Shown one piece after another: positions 3,042 through 30,064 of a stretch of 30,064 nucleotides of DNA (positions are counted from its first letter, which is position 1; every line of letters begins with the position of its first letter). The DNA comes from a virus. The notes under the pieces are model-generated. The model was not told the DNA's origin. It made no database searches and worked only from the letters and a program-made list of their open reading frames with translations. Location: IMG/VR virus record IMGVR_UViG_3300045902_000259, positions 1 through 30,064 of that record. One strand, written 5' to 3'. The translations under genes were made by a program, and so were the position numbers.

Positions 3042-4601
3042 ATGAGCCGCAAAGCTGCTCCGAGGACAAAGCCGATTGAGAAGATGACGCGCGGCGAGAA
3101 GGTCGTCGCGTTCATCGAGGAGTACTGCCGCGTTCCGGAAGGCAAGAACGTTGGCGAGCGGATTGTTCTGGAGCCGTTCCAGCGCAGGTTCATCCTTGAC
3201 GTCTACGACAACCCGCACGGCACGAGCCGCGCCTACCTGTCCATCGCGCGCAAGAACGGGAAGACGGCGCTCATCGCCGGCATCGTGCTCGCGCACATCG
3301 TCGGGCCTGTGGCCGAGCAGAACTCGCAGATCATCAGCGGCGCGCGCTCGCGCGACCAGGCCGCGCTCGTCTTCAAGCTCATGACGAAGATGATCGCGAT
3401 GGAGCCGCGGCTGGCGCGCATCACGCGCATCGTCCCGTCCAGCAAGATCATTGTCGGCTTGCCTCGCAACGTCGAGTACCGCGCCATCTCTGCCGAGGCG
3501 AAGACCGCGCACGGCCTGTCGCCTGTGGTTGCGATCCTTGACGAAGTTGGGCAGGTGAAGGGGCCGCAAGACGACTTCGTGGACGCGATCGAGACGTCGC
3601 AAGGCGCGCACGATCGGCCGCTGCTGCTGGCCATCTCGACGCAAGCCGCGAGCGACTCGGACCTGTTCTCAATCTGGATCGACGATGCGCGCACCAGCAA
3701 CGATCCGACCATCGTGCTGCACGTGTACGAGGCGCCGAAGGACTGCGACTTGCTCGACGAGGAAGCGTGGCGCGCGGCCAATCCGGCCGTCGGCAAGTTT
3801 CGGTCGCTGGACGACTTGCGCCGCCTCGCCGAGAAGGCGCAGCGCATGCCGAGCTTCGCGCCTACGTTCCGCAACCTGAACCTCAACCAGCGCGTTGAAG
3901 CCAGCGCGCCTTTCGTGTCGAGGGAGGTGTGGGACGAGAACGCAGACGAGCCGGGGTCGATTGAGGGTCAGGAAGTTTTCGGCGGGCTGGACCTCGCTTC
4001 TGTGTCCGACCTGTGTGCGCTGGTGCTGGTGTCGCGGTCTGGGGATGTTGTACCGACGTTCTGGCTGCCGGCCGAGGGGTTGGTCGACAAGGCGCGCGAG
4101 GCGCGTGCGCCGTACGACGTGTGGGCGCAGCAGGGCCACTTGTTGACGACGCCTGGGCGCGCCATCCAGTATGAGTTCATCGCCGAGTACCTGCGCGGCG
4201 TTTTTGATCGCTGCGACGTGCGCGCGCTCGCGTTCGACCGATACAACATGCGCTTTTTGCGCCCTTGGCTCGAGCGCGCCGGGTTCACCGAGGACGAGAT
4301 GGCGCGCTTCGTGGACTTCGGGCAAGGGTTCGTGAGCATGTCGCCTGCGCTGCGTGAGCTGGAGTCGCGGCTGCTCGCTCGCCAGCTGCGTCACGGCAAT
4401 CATCCCGTGCTGCGCATGTGCGCGGCCAACGCTGCGGTCGTCATGGACCCTGCAGGCAACCGCAAATTTTCAAAGAATAAAGCCACCGGGCGTATCGACG
4501 GGATGGTCGCGCTCGCTATGGCCGTGGGCTCGATGCCAAGTGAAGTCGAGGATGGAGACCTTGACGGTTTCATTTCCGCTCCAATCACGGCGAGGTACTG
4601 A
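3042..4601 (+). CDS. terL: Terminase large subunit
   Basis: A 519-residue packaging motor and nuclease of the Terminase_1 (HK97-like) family. The ATPase half shows the Walker A segment SIARKNGKT (67-75) and Walker B VVAILDE (162-168, with catalytic E168). A coupling segment, LLLAISTQA (~194-202), follows. The nuclease half has the expected acidic residues: GGLDLAS (D317), LAFDRYN (D399) and RIDGMVALAMAVG (D486). It pumps DNA into the prohead with ATP and cuts the concatemer. It lies two bases after the terS stop and ends five bases before portal. Its length is normal for the family. All key residues are intact. Confidence 0.96.
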   Translation: MSRKAAPRTKPIEKMTRGEKVVAFIEEYCRVPEGKNVGERIVLEPFQRRFILDVYDNPHGTSRAYLSIARKNGKTALIAGIVLAHIVGPVAEQNSQIISGARSRDQAALVFKLMTKMIAMEPRLARITRIVPSSKIIVGLPRNVEYRAISAEAKTAHGLSPVVAILDEVGQVKGPQDDFVDAIETSQGAHDRPLLLAISTQAASDSDLFSIWIDDARTSNDPTIVLHVYEAPKDCDLLDEEAWRAANPAVGKFRSLDDLRRLAEKAQRMPSFAPTFRNLNLNQRVEASAPFVSREVWDENADEPGSIEGQEVFGGLDLASVSDLCALVLVSRSGDVVPTFWLPAEGLVDKAREARAPYDVWAQQGHLLTTPGRAIQYEFIAEYLRGVFDRCDVRALAFDRYNMRFLRPWLERAGFTEDEMARFVDFGQGFVSMSPALRELESRLLARQLRHGNHPVLRMCAANAAVVMDPAGNRKFSKNKATGRIDGMVALAMAVGSMPSEVEDGDLDGFISAPITARY

Positions 4602-22331: not shown

Positions 22332-22634
22332 ATGGAACGATACAACGGCGTAGAGCGCAGGGCTGAGTATCGACCGCCGATCGCGGCCGAGGTCAGGGCA
22401 TGGATCAGCGTCGGCGTCGTGCTGGCCGTGCAGATCGTCGGCGGAGTGTGGTGGGCAGCGACCCTGTCAGCGCAAAACGCCGGCATGCGCGACTTGCTTG
22501 TTCAGTTGCGCAGTGAGATGAAGGAATACGCTCTGAAGTCAGATGTCGAAAGGCGCTTTGACGAAAAGAACCGTGTGCTGCTCGATCATGAGTCGCGGCT
22601 GCGCTCGGTCGAGGCGACGAAGGGGAAGAGATGA
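22332..22634 (+). CDS. Small membrane protein of lysis cassette
   Basis: A 100-residue protein with one hydrophobic segment (AWISVGVVLAVQIVGGVWWA, ~24-43), followed by a charged, probably coiled-coil C-terminal half (LVQLRSEMKEYALKSDVERR). The layout fits an accessory holin, antiholin or inner-membrane lysis protein. It is not a typical i-spanin because the C-terminal part is short. ATG 22332 is chosen because the upstream part of the frame has no ribosome binding site. The stop overlaps the next start (ATGA), so it is co-translated with the putative holin. Confidence 0.65.
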   Translation: MERYNGVERRAEYRPPIAAEVRAWISVGVVLAVQIVGGVWWAATLSAQNAGMRDLLVQLRSEMKEYALKSDVERRFDEKNRVLLDHESRLRSVEATKGKR

Positions 22635-23113: not shown

Positions 23114-23570
23114 ACTGGCCAGCCCCCTAATCAAGCGCTGGGAAGGGCTTCACAAGAGGGTCGGCTCGAAGGTGGCGCCCTACTTGTGCCCGGCCGGCGT
23201 CTGGACAATAGGTTGGGGGTCGACGAAGTACCCTGACGGGCGAGCGGTGACGAAGGACGACCCGCCGCTCTCGCCGGAGGCGTGTGACCGCATATTCGAC
23301 GCCGACCTCCCGCGGTACATGGCGCAGGCGCTGAAGGCGTCGCCTGTACTCGCCGCCCACGAGGCGCGCCTCGCGGCGGTGACGAGCTTCGTGTACAACC
23401 TCGGCGCCGGCCGCTACCGGGCGTCTACCCTCCGACGGCGAATCGACGCCCGGGATTGGGTCGGAGCGGCGCAGGAGTTCCCGAAGTGGGTCCGGGCAGG
23501 CGGGCGAGTCCTCCCTGGGCTCGTAGCGCGCCGCGCCCAGGAGCGGGCGCTCTTTGAGCGTGGCAGCTAG
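23097..23570 (+). CDS. Endolysin, GH24 lysozyme family
   Basis: A 157-residue muramidase that cleaves the glycan chain of peptidoglycan. The catalytic glutamate is in LIKRWEGLHK (E16). The T4-type triad is completed by C31 in YLCPAGV, in the place of the usual D (a known variant in the family), and T37 in VWTIGWGST. The E-to-C spacing is a few residues longer than usual (KRVGSKVAP). C-terminal signatures are AVTSFVYNLGAGRYRASTLRR and FPKWVRAGGRVLPGLVARRA. No signal-anchor is seen, so it probably needs the holin for export. GTG 23097 starts within the holin gene. Confidence 0.92.
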   Translation: MRRAAELASPLIKRWEGLHKRVGSKVAPYLCPAGVWTIGWGSTKYPDGRAVTKDDPPLSPEACDRIFDADLPRYMAQALKASPVLAAHEARLAAVTSFVYNLGAGRYRASTLRRRIDARDWVGAAQEFPKWVRAGGRVLPGLVARRAQERALFERGS

Positions 23571-23597
23571 GCCGCCGAATGACGCAACCATTGGGCA

Positions 23598-23708
23598 ATG
23601 GCTGGGCGCCCGGAGCAAGAAAAGGCCGGCATCCGGTGCGCCCGGCGCACGCTAGACGACGGCCGCGTGATGGTCACGCGAGAGCCGTCTGCGGATCAGT
23701 TTGAGTGA
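23598..23708 (+). CDS. Possible 36-residue protein after endolysin
   Basis: ATG 23598 to TGA 23706-23708 encodes a short, polar peptide containing GRPEQEKAGIRCARRTLDDG and RVMVTREPSADQFE. It looks more natural than random frames in GC-rich DNA, but no family or clear ribosome binding site is visible. It contains a perfect palindrome, GTGCGCC-C-GGCGCAC, at 23636-23650 that could instead be a structural element at the end of the late operon. Confidence 0.3.
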   Translation: MAGRPEQEKAGIRCARRTLDDGRVMVTREPSADQFE

Positions 23709-23839
23709 TGATCAAACTGCGCCCGCAGGACGGATGCTAGGGCGTGGGCGCGGCGGTAGCCTGCCCCGCCCCGCCTCGCCAGGCCAGGCCGAGCCTTGCC
23801 TGCCTTGCCTCGCCTGCCTTGCCCCGCCCCGCCGTGCCA

Positions 23840-23966
23840 GGCCACGCCTTGCCCAGCCGCGCCTTGCCCAGCCCGGCCTGCCTTGCCATGCCACGCCCGG
23901 CCGAGCCGCGCCGCGCCTTGCCGCGCCGGGCCAGGCCGCGCCACGCCACGCCGAGCCACGCCTGCC
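23840..23966 (+). repeat. 127-base direct repeat, copy 1
   Basis: A 127-base segment of the GCCNN array that recurs, identical at every base I compared, at 24095-24221, 255 bases downstream. The order of variable dinucleotides is the same in both, so this is a copying event and not independent expansion of a short motif. Confidence 0.93.
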
Positions 23967-24016
23967 TTGCCTAGCCCAGCCACGCCTAGCCGCGCCTGCC
24001 TGGCCTGGCCACGCCT
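23959..24016 (+). repeat. 58-base direct repeat, copy 1
   Basis: A second repeated segment of the array, matching 24047-24104 over 58 bases. It begins inside the end of the first 127-base copy. The order along the array is therefore long, short, spacer, short, long. Confidence 0.9.
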
Positions 24017-24046
24017 CGCCTTGCCTAGCCCCGCCGCGCCCCGCCT

Positions 24047-24104
24047 CGCCTGCCTTGCCTAGCCCAGCCACGCCTAGCCGCGCCTGCCTGGCCTGGCCAC
24101 GCCT
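24047..24104 (+). repeat. 58-base direct repeat, copy 2
   Basis: Second copy of 23959-24016, displaced by 88 bases. It runs into the second 127-base copy at 24095. Confidence 0.9.
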
Positions 24105-24221
24105 TGCCCAGCCGCGCCTTGCCCAGCCCGGCCTGCCTTGCCATGCCACGCCCGGCCGAGCCGCGCCGCGCCTTGCCGCGCCGGGCCAGGCCGCGCCACG
24201 CCACGCCGAGCCACGCCTGCC
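24095..24221 (+). repeat. 127-base direct repeat, copy 2
   Basis: Second copy of the 23840-23966 segment, identical over 127 bases. It diverges at its right-hand end where the array finishes. Confidence 0.93.
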
Positions 24222-24246
24222 ACGCCATGCCGCGTCTCACACGGCG

Positions 24247-24711
24247 CTAGGCCGGTTCGCTGGTCAGCGACAGCCGCACGTTGAGCGTCATCTGCAGCAG
24301 CTGCAGAATGTCCTGCTCCACGCCGACCGCCGCGGCAACGCTCTGTGCGCGGATGAGCGCGGCATACACCCGGCCGCACTCCGCCAGCACGACCTCGCGC
24401 GCGATCTCGGCATCGTCGCGCACTCGCACGACCGAGGTGTAGCCCTGCTCGCGCACGCCGCACTCCGGGTCGCGCACGAAGTACGGCGCCCGGATCGTGC
24501 GGCTTTCGTTGGTGATGACAACGCGCACGTTGCGGATCAGCTGCCGCGCCACCTCGCGCCAGTGCTCTTCGGCGGCCTTCTGGACGTCCCAGTCGAACTG
24601 GTCGTGCAGCGGGCTGTCGGGACGCTTGGCGTCCTCCACCACGATATCGGGCGTCAGCGTGCCGTGCTGCTTGTGCAGCTGGATCAGGTAGTCGTTGACG
24701 GTCTGGTTCAT
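24247..24711 (-). CDS. Conserved phage protein of unknown function
   Basis: A 154-residue soluble protein: MNQTVNDYLIQLHKQHG, TPDIVVEDAKRPDSPLHDQF, VQKAAEEHWREVARQLIRNV, NESRTIRAPYFVRDPE and a C-terminal helical part (ILQLLQMTLNVRLSLTSEPA). I have the impression of similar proteins in other proteobacterial phages, always without an assigned role. The 'vvedA-d-sSPLH--FeWd' opening and the RAPYFVRD segment are probably the conserved parts. ATG at 24711 has GGAG eight bases upstream. It lies 16 bases after the 24728 gene and is surely in one operon with it, which suggests a shared DNA-metabolism role. That is inference. Confidence 0.75.
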   Translation of the reverse strand: MNQTVNDYLIQLHKQHGTLTPDIVVEDAKRPDSPLHDQFDWDVQKAAEEHWREVARQLIRNVRVVITNESRTIRAPYFVRDPECGVREQGYTSVVRVRDDAEIAREVVLAECGRVYAALIRAQSVAAAVGVEQDILQLLQMTLNVRLSLTSEPA

Positions 24712-26445: not shown

Positions 26446-26892
26446 TCAGGCGGCCGGCACGTATGACGTGCCGAATGGGACATACGTCCCATCCTCCACC
26501 TCGGACTCGGGCGGCACATTCGCCCGAGTCCCGATCCAGCAGCGGTAACCGACCACTGCGTTGTTGCCAATGACTGCCAGGTCATCTACCTGGCAGATGC
26601 CGTACACGTTGGCGTTGTCGCCAACGGTCACCAGGTTGTACAGCCTGGCCTGATCCTGGACGACTGCGCCGGCGCCAATCCAGCACCGGGCGCCGATGTA
26701 GGCCCGGCGCCCGATGTAGGCGCCGGCCTCGATGACGGTGCCGTCACCGATGACGGCACCGTCGTCTACGTGGGCGCCGTCGCCCACGTAGACGAACCGC
26801 CCCAGCCGAGCGCTGGGGTGAACTCGGGCCGACTTCTCGACCCGCGTCCCCATCCCGATGGGGACGTAGTAGACACCTTCCGAACCGTCCAC
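26446..26892 (-). CDS. Left-handed beta-helix (hexapeptide repeat) protein
   Basis: A 148-residue protein starting at GTG 26892 with AAGGAGG upstream. Almost the whole length is [I/V/L]-G-x4-type hexapeptide repeats: VHPSARLGRFVYVGDGAHVD, GAVIGDGTVIEAGAYIGRRA, YIGARCWIGAGAVVQDQARL, LVTVGDNANVYGICQVDDLA and VIGNNAVVGYRCWIGTRANV. This gives a left-handed parallel beta-helix prism as in hexapeptide acyltransferases and gamma carbonic anhydrases. The usual catalytic histidine of the acyltransferases is not obvious; only one H appears in the early helix turns (AHVDD) and one in RVHPS. The protein may be a structural or binding module. A strong promoter precedes it, so it is well expressed early. 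Confidence 0.85.
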   Translation of the reverse strand: MDGSEGVYYVPIGMGTRVEKSARVHPSARLGRFVYVGDGAHVDDGAVIGDGTVIEAGAYIGRRAYIGARCWIGAGAVVQDQARLYNLVTVGDNANVYGICQVDDLAVIGNNAVVGYRCWIGTRANVPPESEVEDGTYVPFGTSYVPAA

Positions 26893-26909
26893 AATGGCCT
26901 CCTTGCCAT
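26890..26909 (-). promoter_or_regulatory. Leader repeat with Shine-Dalgarno in a hairpin loop, copy 2
   Basis: The same 20 bases as at 26383-26402, here ahead of the beta-helix gene. The stem is ATGGC/GCCAT (five bases), and the AAGGAG lies in the loop, followed by GTG. Confidence 0.7.
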
Positions 26910-26944
26910 CTCGCGCCAGGCCCCATTGCCCGGCGCATGTCCGC

Positions 26945-26973
26945 ACTATAGGCCACGCGCGGCAGCCTGTCAA
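26945..26973 (-). promoter_or_regulatory. Sigma70-type promoter for the beta-helix operon
   Basis: On the - strand, TTGACA (complement of 26968-26973) is a perfect -35 box. A 17-base spacer and TATAGT (complement of 26945-26950) follow. Transcription would start near 26938 and read leftward into the gene at 26892 and on to 24247. Confidence 0.85.
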
Positions 26974-27057: not shown

Positions 27058-27297
27058 CTAGGCCCCGCCGCGGCCGAGCACGGCGCCGTCCAGCCGCAGC
27101 CGGTAGGTCTGCGAGCGGCCGTCGATCTGCAGCAGCTCGCAGCGGGTGACCTGGCCGTGCAGGCACAGCTCAACGTGGCCGACGACGGTGCCTGCCGCGA
27201 TGATCGGCGGGCCTGGGCGCGGTGGCCACGCCTCGAGCTCGGCGTCGCGGCGGGCGCGCTGGGCGCGTGATCGGCGGGTGGTGGGCGCAACGCTCAT
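27058..27297 (-). CDS. Small hypothetical protein
   Basis: A 79-residue protein: a basic N-terminus (TRRSRAQRARRDAELEAW) followed by AAGTVVGHVELCLHGQVTRC and ELLQIDGRSQTYRLRLDGAV. The C-terminal half looks like a small beta-barrel. Similar short proteins with the H-G-Q-V-T-R-C/LL-I-DGR segment occur in phages, I believe, but have no known role. No clear ribosome binding site precedes ATG 27297. It ends with a TAG in GCTAGGCC. Confidence 0.6.
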   Translation of the reverse strand: MSVAPTTRRSRAQRARRDAELEAWPPRPGPPIIAAGTVVGHVELCLHGQVTRCELLQIDGRSQTYRLRLDGAVLGRGGA

Positions 27298-27315
27298 GCG
27301 GGTTGTCTACAGCAC

Positions 27316-27322
27316 GTTAGCC
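27316..27322 (+). mobile_element. Core site at the other end of the cassette
   Basis: GTTAGCC, the complement of the GGCTAAC of the attC-like site. Insertion at G|TTAGCC would put the cassette at 27317-27893 (577 bases). No attC-like hairpin is visible upstream, so the neighbouring site may be a secondary target. Confidence 0.5.
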
Positions 27323-27781
27323 CTCTTGCGACAGGCTGGCATGCACGTTGTCCCAGAACATGCGGTCATCGACGCGCAGCAGGAACCCTTCGCCCATCAT
27401 GTCGCCGCCGGTGCTCACAATGTGCGCCGCGCAAGTCCACGCCTTCGCTGTGTCCACATCATCCGGCGTGCAGCGCTCAATCTTCTCCAGCGCCAGCAGG
27501 TGCGGGCACTCGCGCGTCCTTACGCCTTTGCAGCACGTCAGGTGGTTGTCATTGACCGGCACTGGGGCCTGCATGCTGCACTGCTGGTGCGTTTGCGGCA
27601 GCGCGTTCTCGCGCTCCTGCCGGAACAGCCTCACCATTCGCGGCACCTCGTCGGCCATGGTCTTGGCGTCGTACATGAAGCTCAGCTCGCGCCACTCGTT
27701 GCCGGCTGCGCGCCGCTCGTCGCTGTGCCTGTTCACAGCAACATGCCATTCGTGGCTCAGCGGGTACTGCAACATTTCCAT
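27317..27781 (-). CDS. Cassette-borne hypothetical Cys-rich protein
   Basis: A 154-residue protein: MEMLQYPLSHEWHVAVNRHS, RRAAGNEWRELSFMYDAKTM, then ADEVPRMVRLFRQERENALP and a Cys-rich part (HQQCSMQ, HLTCCKGVRTRECPHLL, EKIERCTPDD, WTCAAHIVS). Six cysteines and nearby histidines could bind zinc. I do not recognise a family. ATG 27781 has GGAGG close upstream. The TAA stop is the complement of the TTA in the core site GTTAGCC at 27316-27322, and an attC-like hairpin lies on the other side, so it looks like the only gene of an integron-type cassette, read against the cassette direction. The start and stop fill nearly the entire cassette. Confidence 0.72.
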   Translation of the reverse strand: MEMLQYPLSHEWHVAVNRHSDERRAAGNEWRELSFMYDAKTMADEVPRMVRLFRQERENALPQTHQQCSMQAPVPVNDNHLTCCKGVRTRECPHLLALEKIERCTPDDVDTAKAWTCAAHIVSTGGDMMGEGFLLRVDDRMFWDNVHASLSQEG

Positions 27782-27797
27782 GTTTCCTCCACCAGAG

Positions 27798-27899
27798 GGC
27801 TAACCCCTCGGTCAAGGCGAGGCCCAACGGCTGGCCACACCTGTTCGCTACGGCTAGTTTTGCGGCGCCGTTGGTCTCGCATTACCTCAAACGTTAGGC
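27798..27899 (+). mobile_element. attC-like recombination site of an integron gene cassette
   Basis: Ends are GGCTAAC (27798-27804) and GTTAGGC (27893-27899), which fit RYYYAAC/GTTRRRY closely. The interior forms an imperfect hairpin: GGT (27810-27812) with ACC (27884-27886), a CAAG/ATT internal loop, GCGAG (27817-27821) with CTCGC (27876-27880), a GC/T bulge, and CCAACGGC (27824-27831) with GCCGTTGG (27867-27874), leaving a 35-base terminal loop. The 5' TCGGTCAAGGCG and 3' TTACCTCAAACGTTAGGC resemble the L-box halves of known attC sites in that orientation. The first 10 bases, with GAGGGCTAAC, are the inverse of GTTAGCCCTC at 27316-27325, as expected for the two ends of one inserted cassette. 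Confidence 0.68.
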
Positions 27900-28208
27900 A
27901 TCAACAACGCGCTCGTTCCAAGCGTTGTACTCAGCCTCGTAGCGCGCAGCGTTCACGTCGCTTTGCAGTGCGGCCATCTTTTCCATGATTTCGGCCTCGC
28001 AAGCTGCAATGTCAAGTTGCGGGTAGGCGTCTGGACTTTCCCACCCTGCGCCGAAATTGACCTCAGTGATGCTTACGCTCGGATCGTAACCCGGGCTGCC
28101 GACTCCGGCGCGTGCGTCAAACCACTGCGCCTCACCCCTGTCGTAATCGAAGCGCACGCGAAACTGCGTGTCTTCGTGCCATAACTCCAGTTCTGTCGGT
28201 AGCTTCAT
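27894..28208 (-). CDS. Hypothetical acidic protein
   Basis: A 104-residue protein starting MKLPTELELWHEDTQFRVRF at ATG 28208: DYDRGEAQWFDARAGVGSPG, SVSITEVNFGAGWESPDAYP, then QLDIAACEAEIMEKMAALQS and ARYEAEYNAWNERVVDA. It looks like a beta-rich first half and two helices. I do not recognise it. The TAA stop is the complement of the TTA in GTTAGGC (27893-27899), so its 3' end is precisely at the attC-like boundary. That suggests the attC insertion removed or replaced its original end, or that this gene is also cassette-derived. No second attC is seen upstream of it. Confidence 0.65.
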   Translation of the reverse strand: MKLPTELELWHEDTQFRVRFDYDRGEAQWFDARAGVGSPGYDPSVSITEVNFGAGWESPDAYPQLDIAACEAEIMEKMAALQSDVNAARYEAEYNAWNERVVDA

Positions 28209-28251
28209 ACTTTCTTTGCAAGTGTTGTGCGTCGTGACCCATGCCAACAGC

Positions 28252-28758
28252 TTATGCACGCCGAAAGCCGTCTGGTTCCGCCGGCGCACAGTCCGCCGGC
28301 CAGTGCCCGGCCAGCGCCTCGTCGGCAACCCTGGCGAGATAGGACAGCTCGGCCGTGTCGCCGCCGACCTCAATCTCCTCTTCAGGCGTCAAGGCAGCGT
28401 ACATGAAGTGACCCTTGATGCGGTCACGAATCTCGGTCAATGCCGAACGCAGGGTCTGCACATCCGCATTCGTCTCCAGCACTTCGCTGCCGCAGTCGTT
28501 CCAGTTGCGCATTGCGTAGTCCACGGCCTGGGCGTGAGTCGGCCACCAGGAGCCAAACGCATAACCTGCGTGGCACATGAGCCACTCTCTGGTGCCGGGA
28601 TCTGATCCCACTTGACGATAAACGACGATGAAGTCAGGATGGTCGCGCAACCAGCGGTAGCGCGCGGCGTCGGCCACAAGAGCAGGACGCTCGGCCTCAA
28701 GGTCGGCCACGCGGCGGCGCAGGTGCTCGCGCTCGGCAGGCGTCGGGCGACTGTGCAT
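28252..28758 (-). CDS. Hypothetical phage protein
   Basis: A ~168-residue protein from ATG 28758: MHSRPTPAEREHLRRRVADL, EAERPALVADAARYRWLRDH, PDFIVVYRQVGSDPGTREW, then HAGYAFGSWWPTHAQAVDYA and ALTEIRDRIKGHFMYAALTP. The 'DAaRYRWLRdhp' segment is frequent in small phage proteins annotated only as hypothetical. The C-terminal part TAELSYLARVADEALAGHWP is helical. A longer start, GTG 28833 with GAGGG six bases upstream, would add 25 residues and overlap the upstream gene by ~60 bases; it has the better ribosome binding site, so the start is open. Confidence 0.65.
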   Translation of the reverse strand: MHSRPTPAEREHLRRRVADLEAERPALVADAARYRWLRDHPDFIVVYRQVGSDPGTREWLMCHAGYAFGSWWPTHAQAVDYAMRNWNDCGSEVLETNADVQTLRSALTEIRDRIKGHFMYAALTPEEEIEVGGDTAELSYLARVADEALAGHWPADCAPAEPDGFRRA

Positions 28759-28771
28759 TTTGCTTGATGCT

Positions 28772-28987
28772 TCACTCAACAGGACGACTGACGGTTCCGC
28801 TTCGTTCTGCGTTAGCCTGCTGCGCTCTCTCACGTTTGGCCCTCAAACGAGCCAGCTTTGCAACCGTCTTTTTCAAAATCAGCGCGTCGTCCGGATGCGC
28901 CCAGCACTTGAACTGCACTAAGCCCGCAGCACGCAGCCGCGCTTTACGGGCGGCCTGGCGCTGGGCCGGAGTTTTTGCCGCGCTCAT
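28772..28987 (-). CDS. Small basic hypothetical protein
   Basis: A 71-residue protein starting MSAAKTPAQRQAARKARLRA at ATG 28987, followed by AGLVQFKCWAHPDDALILKK and TVAKLARLRAKRERAQQANA. The pattern 'raaGLv-f-vWahPdda--lkk-va-l' is common to short phage and plasmid proteins that look like ribbon-helix-helix DNA binders. It could be a regulator, but that is inference. It is between 28984 and 28252 in a run of overlapping leftward genes. Confidence 0.65.
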   Translation of the reverse strand: MSAAKTPAQRQAARKARLRAAGLVQFKCWAHPDDALILKKTVAKLARLRAKRERAQQANAERSGTVSRPVE

Positions 28988-29166
28988 GCTTTTGGAGCGC
29001 TCCGAAGAACGTGCAACATTCCACCGACGGTACAACGGTAGATGCGCCACTTCGGAGCATCAGGCGGCGAGTACCAGTAGGCGACGTGCCGCCCTTGCGA
29101 GTCGAGCTCGCGGCCGACGCGGCCAAGGCGCCGCGCAGCTTCCTTGGCGATGCGGGCGGGCATCAT
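28984..29166 (-). CDS. Small hypothetical protein
   Basis: A 60-residue protein starting at ATG 29166 with GGAGG seven bases upstream: MMPARIAKEAARRLGRVGRE, LDSQGRHVAYWYSPPDAPKW, RIYRCTVGGMLHVLRSAPKA. It overlaps the upstream gene (ATGATG shares the TGA stop) and the next gene by four bases. I do not recognise a family. The longer frame continuing upstream is a shadow of the neighbour. Confidence 0.65.
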   Translation of the reverse strand: MMPARIAKEAARRLGRVGRELDSQGRHVAYWYSPPDAPKWRIYRCTVGGMLHVLRSAPKA

Positions 29167-29372
29167 CGTGCCGCCTCCAGCACCTGCGCGAAGGTCCAAA
29201 CCTTCGCGCACCCGTCGTCGACGACGACGTAGCCGCGGGCAGCGTCGGCCCATGGCAGCTCGCCGGCGCCGGGCAGCGCCTGCACGCCGATGAGCTCGAT
29301 GCCCTTGGCGCGCAGCGCCCGAAGGGTCTTGGGGGAGAAGTCGCGCTGGGCGACGAGGGAAGAGACGCTCAT
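29163..29372 (-). CDS. Small hypothetical protein
   Basis: A 69-residue protein starting MSVSSLVAQRDFSPKTLRAL at ATG 29372 with GGAGG five bases upstream: RAKGIELIGVQALPGAGELP, WADAARGYVVVDDGCAKVWT, FAQVLEAAR. The second half looks like a small beta hairpin plus helix. Short proteins with the 'GyvvvDDG--kVwtf-qVl' ending appear in phage early regions, to my recollection, with no known role. Confidence 0.68.
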   Translation of the reverse strand: MSVSSLVAQRDFSPKTLRALRAKGIELIGVQALPGAGELPWADAARGYVVVDDGCAKVWTFAQVLEAAR

Positions 29373-29426
29373 TGGAGCCTCCGTAGGAATGCGCGGGATT
29401 GCGCTGTTTGCTGATCCGATGACTGA

Positions 29427-29455
29427 ATCTTAGCCGCCCGTGAGCACTCACGCAA
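29427..29455 (-). promoter_or_regulatory. Possible promoter with internal palindrome
   Basis: On the - strand TTGCGT (complement of 29450-29455), a 17-base spacer and TAAGAT (complement of 29427-29432) make a moderate promoter pointing at the 29372 gene. The spacer is overlapped by the palindrome CGTGAG-CA-CTCACG (29439-29452), a possible repressor operator. Confidence 0.5.
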
Positions 29456-29491
29456 GCGCTATTTACAACTGTTACATCTTCGCGCGGCGAC

Positions 29492-29511
29492 ACAGCTGGC
29501 TACCCAGCTGT
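29492..29511. promoter_or_regulatory. Palindrome ACAGCTGG-CTAC-CCAGCTGT
   Basis: Perfect eight-base arms with a four-base centre. On the - strand the right-hand arm overlaps a TTGACA that has no good -10 box. It may be a second operator or a hairpin in the 29373-29593 gap, which otherwise holds only the candidate promoter, the 15-base repeat and a GTTAGGC. Confidence 0.5.
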
Positions 29512-29526
29512 CAATGCGACAGGCTG

Positions 29527-29541
29527 AACAGGGCAGCGATG
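29527..29541 (-). repeat. 15-base repeat AACAGGGCAGCGATG, copy 2
   Basis: Identical to 25554-25568. Here GCAGCGA pairs with TCGCTGC (29546-29552), a seven-base stem. Confidence 0.5.
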
Positions 29542-29593
29542 ACTAGTCGCTGCTGCTGTGTGGGCCGGCGTCAGCGGCGGCAAAGCGCATGCG

Positions 29594-29866
29594 TTAGGCC
29601 CCACGAATCGCATCGCCAATCTCGCGCAGGGCGTCCATCGTCCACTGTGCAGCCAGCTCGCCGGCTGCGCTGTTTCCAACCGGCACGCGGTGCGCTTCGA
29701 CAATCCGCGCGCACCGCTCGCGCTCTGCGGCCACGCACGCGGCGGCGTAGGCGCGCATGTCCTCTGCGGTCCAGACGGGCACCTGCTCGGTGCCGCGCGT
29801 CACCACGTCGAAACGCTCTGGCATTGGAGGGTGGTCGTCGGCGGCCATTTGTTGCCGTTGGCTCAT
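29594..29866 (-). CDS. Small hypothetical phage protein
   Basis: A 90-residue protein: MSQRQQMAADDHPPMPERFD, VVTRGTEQVPVWTAEDMRAY, AAACVAAERERCARIVEAHR, ELAAQWTMDALREIGDAIRG. The segment 'a-D-rayAaacvAAERERCAriv' is widespread in short phage early proteins annotated as hypothetical, and the central cysteine is conserved. The ATG overlaps the stop of the gene upstream (ATGA). Its own TAA stop is the complement of TTA in GTTAGGC (29593-29599), the same arrangement as at the attC-like site, but no attC hairpin is adjacent. Confidence 0.72.
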   Translation of the reverse strand: MSQRQQMAADDHPPMPERFDVVTRGTEQVPVWTAEDMRAYAAACVAAERERCARIVEAHRVPVGNSAAGELAAQWTMDALREIGDAIRGA

Positions 29867-30064
29867 TGGTCGGTAGCCGGCGCAGTGGACGCATCACTTG
29901 GCTCGCTGCCGGCATTGTCATGCGCCACAAATACCGGGTCGACGTCCGGCTCGGCGTTGGTGTCGGCGTAGTCCACGACCTCGGCAGCCTGCGTCTTGCC
30001 CGAGATCACCGCCCGCACGGCCGCCAAACTGCCGCCTGCTGGCTTCACTTCGTCGGCGATGCCG
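29863..30064 (-). CDS. C-terminal end of an unidentified protein (partial)
   Basis: The frame is open to the window edge, so only the last ~66 codons are visible: GIADEVKPAGGSLAAVRAVI, SGKTQAAEVVDYADTNAEPD, VDPVFVAHDNAGSEPSDAST. It is acidic and poor in hydrophobic residues toward the end, like a flexible tail. The function cannot be judged. The stop overlaps the start of the 29866 gene, so both belong to one leftward operon. Confidence 0.55.
   Translation of the reverse strand, partial: GIADEVKPAGGSLAAVRAVISGKTQAAEVVDYADTNAEPDVDPVFVAHDNAGSEPSDASTAPATDQ

Follow-up and report, generated by a model that had tools for sequence, protein, structure and literature searches.

A probable integron gene cassette in a siphophage genome and a lineage of phage-encoded integrons with reversed cassette genes

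Positions 27316-27893 of the window, the 30,064-base virus record analysed here, very probably represent a genuine integron gene cassette (cassette A), the intact member of a small array in the genome of a temperate-type siphophage. This assessment is joint with two further points, a cassette pool shared among phages and a phage integron lineage able to capture such cassettes. The features of the array are listed in Table 1. Recombination by IntI at the attC site 27798-27899 is predicted from the sequence.

Cassette A, its boundaries and its attC site

An earlier note on this DNA had described a GTTAGCC core, GGCTAAC and GTTAGGC ends, half-sites resembling L boxes and a 10-base complement. All of these were located at the same positions, the complement being GTTAGCCCTC at 27316 and GAGGGCTAAC at 27795. 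The note had also named a good attC covariance score as support for its reading, and such a score was obtained. The covariance model was trained on 11 attC sites of plasmid resistance cassettes (class 1) only; a first training set, in which Vibrio and Shewanella sites with 5-nt spacers were mixed with class 1 sites with 6-nt spacers, was replaced by these 11 sites because the register did not align. The attC site of cassette A was the sole significant match of this model in the 30-kb window, and the runner-up scored 9.3 bits (E 2.8). Like canonical attC sites, the window site has a single extra base (C27813) in its L''/L' pair.

Table 1. Features of the array in the window. Positions are those of the window; G001, G002 and G008 are other virus contigs.
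Feature	Position	Strand	Details
Core GTTAGCC	27316..27322	+	Left junction of cassette A, G/TTAGCC; 7/7 complement of own R''
Complete integron gene cassette A	27317..27893		577 nt; 85.5% identity over 588 bp to G002, 86% to G001
Cassette A gene	27317..27781	-	154 aa, reversed relative to attC; TAA stop inside core GTTA
attC recombination site (recombination predicted)	27798..27899	+	102 nt; Infernal model R1, 31.3 bits, E 2.7e-6
R'' box GGCTAAC	27798..27804	+	Read in sequence, aligned by attC model
L'' box GGT(C)AA, extra base C27813	27810..27815	+	Aligned by model; column pairs 13-102 to 18-98
L' box TTACC	27882..27886	+	Read in sequence, aligned by attC model
R' box GTTAGGC	27893..27899	+	End of cassette A, start of next unit
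Gene of unit B	27894..28208	-	104 aa; stop codon in core, ATG start 28206-28208
Probable decayed attC	28774..28817	+	Ends in core GTTAGCC (28811); 28811 aligns with R' core of G008 attC (757)
Probable cassette C	28811..29593		Homologous at both ends to G008 cassette 757-1456 (blastn)
Probable decayed attC	29497..29599	+	Aligns with G008 attC 1405-1462; R'' GGCTACC, not GGCTAAC; R' GTTAGGC at 29593
Gene of probable unit D	29594..29866	-	90 aa, reversed; stop codon in core

The L''/L' helix was also supported by covariation. In an alignment of 34 model-found sites, which was fitted to the model and thus leans toward its structure but whose compensatory changes are real letters, the helix was 96.6% paired, with two-sided changes in seven of nine pairs. 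The covariation score was 0.429, compared to 0.131 for shuffled data, and the signal was destroyed when the partner was shifted by one column. The bottom strand is the expected folded substrate of the site. Its folding, which the earlier note had put forward as a check, was only mildly unusual (z -1.8, and -1.1 for the top strand); single-strand folding was rejected as proof of an attC because these values are too weak alone. No Rfam families and no tRNAs were found in the window.

Cassette A was also present in two other phage contigs, G001 and G002, which have no nucleotide similarity to the window besides this cassette (tblastx between the phages was uninformative). Its left neighbour is attI in G001, the attC of another cassette in G002 and neither of these in the window. 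The left flanks of the three copies share 23-32% identity and differ up to the core base at 27316, while the first 60 bp inside the cassette are 95% identical between the window and G001. The right flanks part directly after GTT, and the similarity among all three left and three right flanks is at random level (23-40%). Cassette A is thus a discrete unit in three contexts, with its edges exactly at the GTT cores. The core and the R'' box were complementary at 7/7 positions in most cassettes examined, including GTTAGCC/GGCTAAC in the window. The start core matching the cassette's own R'' and the edges at cores elsewhere bear out the proposal that the site holds one complete cassette of 577 nt with a reversed gene.

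Alternatively, the hairpin could serve the phage as a terminator or regulatory element, with mosaic homologous recombination carrying along a gene that is simply conserved in phages; this is extremely improbable. The gene family does occur in phages without an adjoining attC (L006, L007), which would suit such an explanation. Against it are the independent attC model score, the boundaries, which coincide exactly with the GTT cores in each of three contexts whose flanks are unrelated, the core/R'' complementarity and the presence of an integron integrase and attI beside the same cassette in G001 and G002.

The cassette A gene encodes a conserved, Cys/His-rich protein with 10 relatives in IMG/VR virus contigs (56-89% identity) and none in 84,980 bacterial and archaeal genomes, isolate phages or plasmids. 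The protein had no match in Pfam, PHROG or PADLOC, and its predicted structure (pLDDT 66) had no match in the PDB. At the DNA level, a search of 27200-30064 against isolate phages and plasmids gave a sole match of 43 bp, in Aminobacter. A near copy of the window attC was located on plasmid pSR8 of Aminobacter sp. SR38 (L008 6001-6130; NZ_CP062120.1 about 124770-124900). On this conjugative soil plasmid it adjoins a MAPEG gene and, with its R' core broken (GTCAAGC), is a remnant attC. An exact-pattern search of virus contigs with GGGCTAACCCCTCG returned 91 stretches, which were used for context only.

The window phage and the probable rest of its array

The window carries a siphophage structural block with terminase, portal, major head, tape measure and GTA-like tail genes. 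Most structural genes of another phage contig, G007, share approximately 90% identity with those of the window phage, relative to which G007 is circularly permuted. G007 matched the window at 22332-22613 and 29009-29383, two stretches that have the same order in both contigs and enclose the cassette in the window; cassette A is missing between them in G007. Cassette A is flanked by genes conserved in G007 and is therefore part of the phage genome, where it occupies a variable segment. A search for relatives of the left-flank gene (27058-27297), meant to locate an exact empty site, gave none. The earlier note had looked to relatives that lack the cassette, and G007 is such a relative; for a sister cassette, G001 and G002 differ in the same way. 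Its suggestion that a phage could carry cassettes was likewise upheld, both by the flanking genes conserved in G007 and by the same cassette in the unrelated G001/G002 phage.

The position of the site close to the contig end and the few family matches among nearby genes could suggest a bacterial chromosomal integron next to a phage, with the cassette in host DNA where the prophage contig ends. This is very unlikely, given the G007 matches on both sides of cassette A in the same order, the phage genes on both sides of intI and the array in G001 and G002, and the absence of the cassette gene from the 84,980 genomes searched. Readings of the window as a host flank or as a chimera were rejected on the basis of the G007 synteny.

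The note had treated the cassette as a single unit and missed that further units with decayed attC sites probably extend the array as far as the contig end. At least four units probably make up the array at 27316-30064; of its attC sites the first alone is intact, and units B to D are proposed from sequence comparison. The gene of unit B has 74% nucleotide identity to G008 8108-7809; no attC adjoins the G008 copy, and the stop codon of that homologue overlaps the start of the next gene. The two decayed candidates in the window, which are recognised by alignment with G008, were missed by the attC model in the window, and the G008 attC sites that flank the homologue of cassette C scored 25.9 and 26.5 bits. 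The opening bases of unit D are also those of cassette 2 in the L187 integron, with which it shares AAERERCA and a C-terminal RGA.

The window contig (G000, a 30-kb fragment) gave no match to TIGR02249 and so shows no intI. The attI of the phage integron lineage described below also had no match in the window, and the left junction of cassette A is not attI. Compared with a CALIN, a cluster of at least two attC sites that lacks an integrase, the window shows one intact attC, two decayed candidates and no intI. The decay of the neighbouring attC sites and the lack of an integrase on the contig would both fit a former attC that has since died in the window phage. This is rather unlikely, since 27798-27899 retains every one of its R, L and spacer features and the core pairs perfectly with the cassette start. 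An intact cassette remains the preferred reading of 27316-27893.

Two other features of the window were observed. Immediately to the left of the array, 26446-26946 encodes a hexapeptide-repeat protein on the minus strand (Pfam Hexapep; phrog_5353) in strongly repetitive DNA. The region 23400-24600 has a GC content of 73-75%, compared to 58-67% in the structural genes (1-23400), and its open reading frames have no PHROG match.

Phage-encoded integrons, their integrases and reversed cassette genes

The phage represented by G001 and G002 encodes a true integron integrase, which scored about 420 bits with TIGR02249 (cut-off, 265). The cut-off was also passed in 13 of 18 further records searched, some of which had been picked for other genes. 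The phage carries a complete integron with intI, attI and cassettes beside its own phage integrase (phrog_1). The phage integrase, lysis and tail genes are located on one side of intI and the array, and the early genes and terminase on the other. All integron-bearing phages in this analysis are metagenome contigs or bins, none of them an isolate.

G001 and G002, from the IMG metagenomes 3300037043 and 3300038679, are 100% identical over 12,387 bp, over 1,095 bp covering intI and attI, and over the 580 bp of cassette A. Between attI and cassette A, G002 has an extra cassette B with its own attC, whose R'' box GCCCAAC is complementary to the cassette start GTTGGGC. After cassette A, G002 contains the beginning of a second copy of cassette B. 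This could reflect the assembly of two array states; two arrangements exist either way. Similarly, G013 and G024 share 96.8% identity over the 4.8 kb that end at the attI core, and beyond the last core the identity is 95.9%; the arrays between these two cores are different (2.3 versus 3.4 kb). The similarity also ends at the attI core when L126 is compared with either G013 or G024, and when L122 is compared with L242. These array comparisons (G001/G002 and G013/G024) support capture of cassettes at attI, as far as can be judged from sequence. Near-identical phages differ by cassettes exactly at attI, and so the integron looks like a working part of the gene-swapping machinery of the phage.

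Arrays without intI were present on the virus contigs G004, G008, G025, G027 and G028, as in the window. Those of L109 10541-11952 (G004), L183/L233 (G027, G028) and L180/L234 (G025) have 4 to 7 attC sites, and G027 and G028 also have terminase and tail genes. The otherwise identical contigs L118 and L119 (G014/G015) differ by a 52-bp indel in the array, approximately 1.25 kb to the right of attI.

Relatives of the G001/G002 integrase were found at 23 virus loci. In a maximum-likelihood tree, 11 virus IntI sequences and three from metagenome bins (Burkholderiales, Zoogloea and Rubrivivax) formed one clade with a support of 99/97, apart from IntI1, the Vibrio IntI (IntIA), the Shewanella IntI and the second IntI of two member bins. 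The clade members have a common attI, GTTACGCCGCnGGnnnnGCGGTCGAATTnnnGTT, between intI and the first cassette. Among 399 genomes of one order, this attI was found in the seed bin only and was absent from the other 398. Tail or terminase genes are present on most clade contigs. L185, the nearest of the bin contigs, also represents a prophage and carries genes for a tail protein, a virion component and a phage integrase beside intI. Integrases of the clade were not found among isolate phages, where the nearest was IntI1 at about 54% identity. No LexA box was found near the phage intI, and for this reason SOS control is not claimed.

On L185, a strong sigma-70-like promoter (TTGACA-17-TATATT) is located at about 3249-3277, directly after the last attC, and faces away from the array. 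The loci L125/L129 (G021) and L127 (G023) encode integron integrases that do not belong to the phage clade, some of them adjoining tail genes; these are possibly independent acquisitions.

The cassette genes of these phages run opposite to the direction of attC and attI. By protein-level conservation, 21 genes were reverse, one was forward and three were undecided, and a two-phage codon model gave 26 reverse, one forward and 16 undecided. Self-trained codon models, a noisy method, assigned 21 genes in the phage arrays as reverse and three as forward, with many undecided; in plasmid, Vibrio and Shewanella arrays, the same models assigned eight as forward and one as reverse. Four reverse-frame proteins had family matches: two N6_N4 DNA methyltransferases, phrog_5086 and a crAss001_48-type protein. 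Some cassettes in this comparison of orientation and homology were common to several phages. In G001, G002 and the clade, the cassette genes are not oriented for a Pc promoter at attI, being reversed. The window cassette gene is codirectional with its minus-strand neighbours, and its direction appears to be in line with read-through expression from the phage. The reversed gene is thus a rule in the whole phage-integron lineage rather than an oddity of one cassette, a point that the earlier note had missed.

The array of the window, and with it the phage integrons, might also be a fragment taken up from a bacterial integron in the ordinary way, as published for Vibrio, Shewanella and P1 phages, with no dedicated phage lineage. 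Complete phage integrons of such a kind have been published (PMC9892861), and clade integrases occur in three metagenome bins of Burkholderiales and Rhodocyclales type. We regard this as unlikely, because the clade is separate from IntI1, IntIA, the Shewanella IntI and the second IntI of two member bins, one of the bin contigs is a prophage that encodes a tail protein and a phage integrase next to intI, the lineage attI is missing from the other 398 genomes of the order, and the cassette orientation is opposite to that of bacterial arrays. A phage integron lineage with its own integrase clade and attI is therefore the reading followed here.

Proposed explanation and comparison with known systems

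Under the proposed explanation, cassette A would have been drawn from a cassette pool common to phages, and phage-encoded integrons, with their own IntI and attI and often beside a phage integrase, would be able to capture such cassettes. The attC hairpins keep the usual orientation to attI, with the genes inside the cassettes turned. The cassette genes are reversed and therefore codirectional with intI and the leftward gene block of the phage, and they would probably be expressed by read-through from phage promoters rather than from a Pc promoter. Movement of the cassettes would be due to IntI and not to another recombinase. IntI acting in trans may have placed cassette A in the window phage, where neither intI nor attI was detected. 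The cassette genes may have accessory or anti-host functions, expressed from the phage operon.

Taken further, we consider it somewhat probable that temperate phages of Burkholderiales-type hosts have domesticated the integron as their own gene-exchange organ. A dedicated IntI and attI would lie beside the phage integrase, backward cassettes would drop genes into the leftward operon, and a pool of DNA methyltransferases and small proteins, possibly with anti-defence roles, would circulate among unrelated phages, including the integrase-less window phage.

The known role of integrons is that of gene-capture platforms in bacteria; those in phages are known mostly as passengers. Phage mosaicism is normally ascribed to homologous or illegitimate recombination, and a phage integron would give a defined, site-specific mechanism for part of it. 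The reversed cassettes suggest how an integron adapts to an operon running toward attI. The presence of the same cassette in an unrelated, integrase-encoding virus points to a family of virus-borne integrons swapping genes between phages. The cassette pool would be a ready list of candidate anti-defence genes, and the att sites are short, with standard assays available.

Recombination of attC with attG is an insertion outside integrons, which places a cassette at a GTT site other than attI, and the left junction of cassette A in the window is likewise a non-attI GTT site. Such attC x attG insertion is mentioned in PMC12901181.

Compared to class 1 integrons, the attC anatomy is close enough that a model trained on class 1 sites only finds the phage sites, and the phage attI (TGTTACGCCGC..GG) resembles attI1 (TGTTACGCAGCAGGGC..). 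The phage system differs in that its IntI has about 54% identity to IntI1, its cassette genes are reversed and it is phage-borne. Unlike in class 1 integrons, no resistance genes were identified in the phage cassettes examined. In the integrons of Treponema (PMC3607928), the cassette genes are codirectional with intI, as here; in that case, however, intI itself is turned and transcribed toward attI, whereas in the phages intI starts at attI as usual and the cassette genes are turned.

The earlier note had called attC sites in phage genomes rarely described and had missed that phage attC sites and integrons were already reported by Qi et al. 2023 (PMC9892861). That study described attC sites, cassettes and CALINs in isolate phage genomes. 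Temperate phages contained three complete integrons and one In0, and virulent phages contained CALINs. DNA methyltransferases were among the cassette genes, and IntI1 recombined phage attC sites in E. coli. The phages studied here likewise have attC sites and cassettes inside their genomes, with DNA methyltransferase cassettes. The complete integrons of that study derive from host or plasmid integrons, whereas here a separate IntI clade and its own attI are tied to phage modules. The arrays in two of its virulent phages are described as typically oriented; here, in contrast, the genes within the cassettes are turned, and entire cassettes or arrays distinguish phages that are otherwise nearly identical.

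Full-text searches of open-access papers gave no description of a phage-specific integrase clade or of phage integrons with reversed cassettes. A phage-dedicated integron lineage with reversed cassettes and array turnover thus appears to be undescribed so far. Cassettes with an attC site were already known from phages, whereas phage-dedicated integrons with reversed cassettes and visible array turnover look like a new variant of them.
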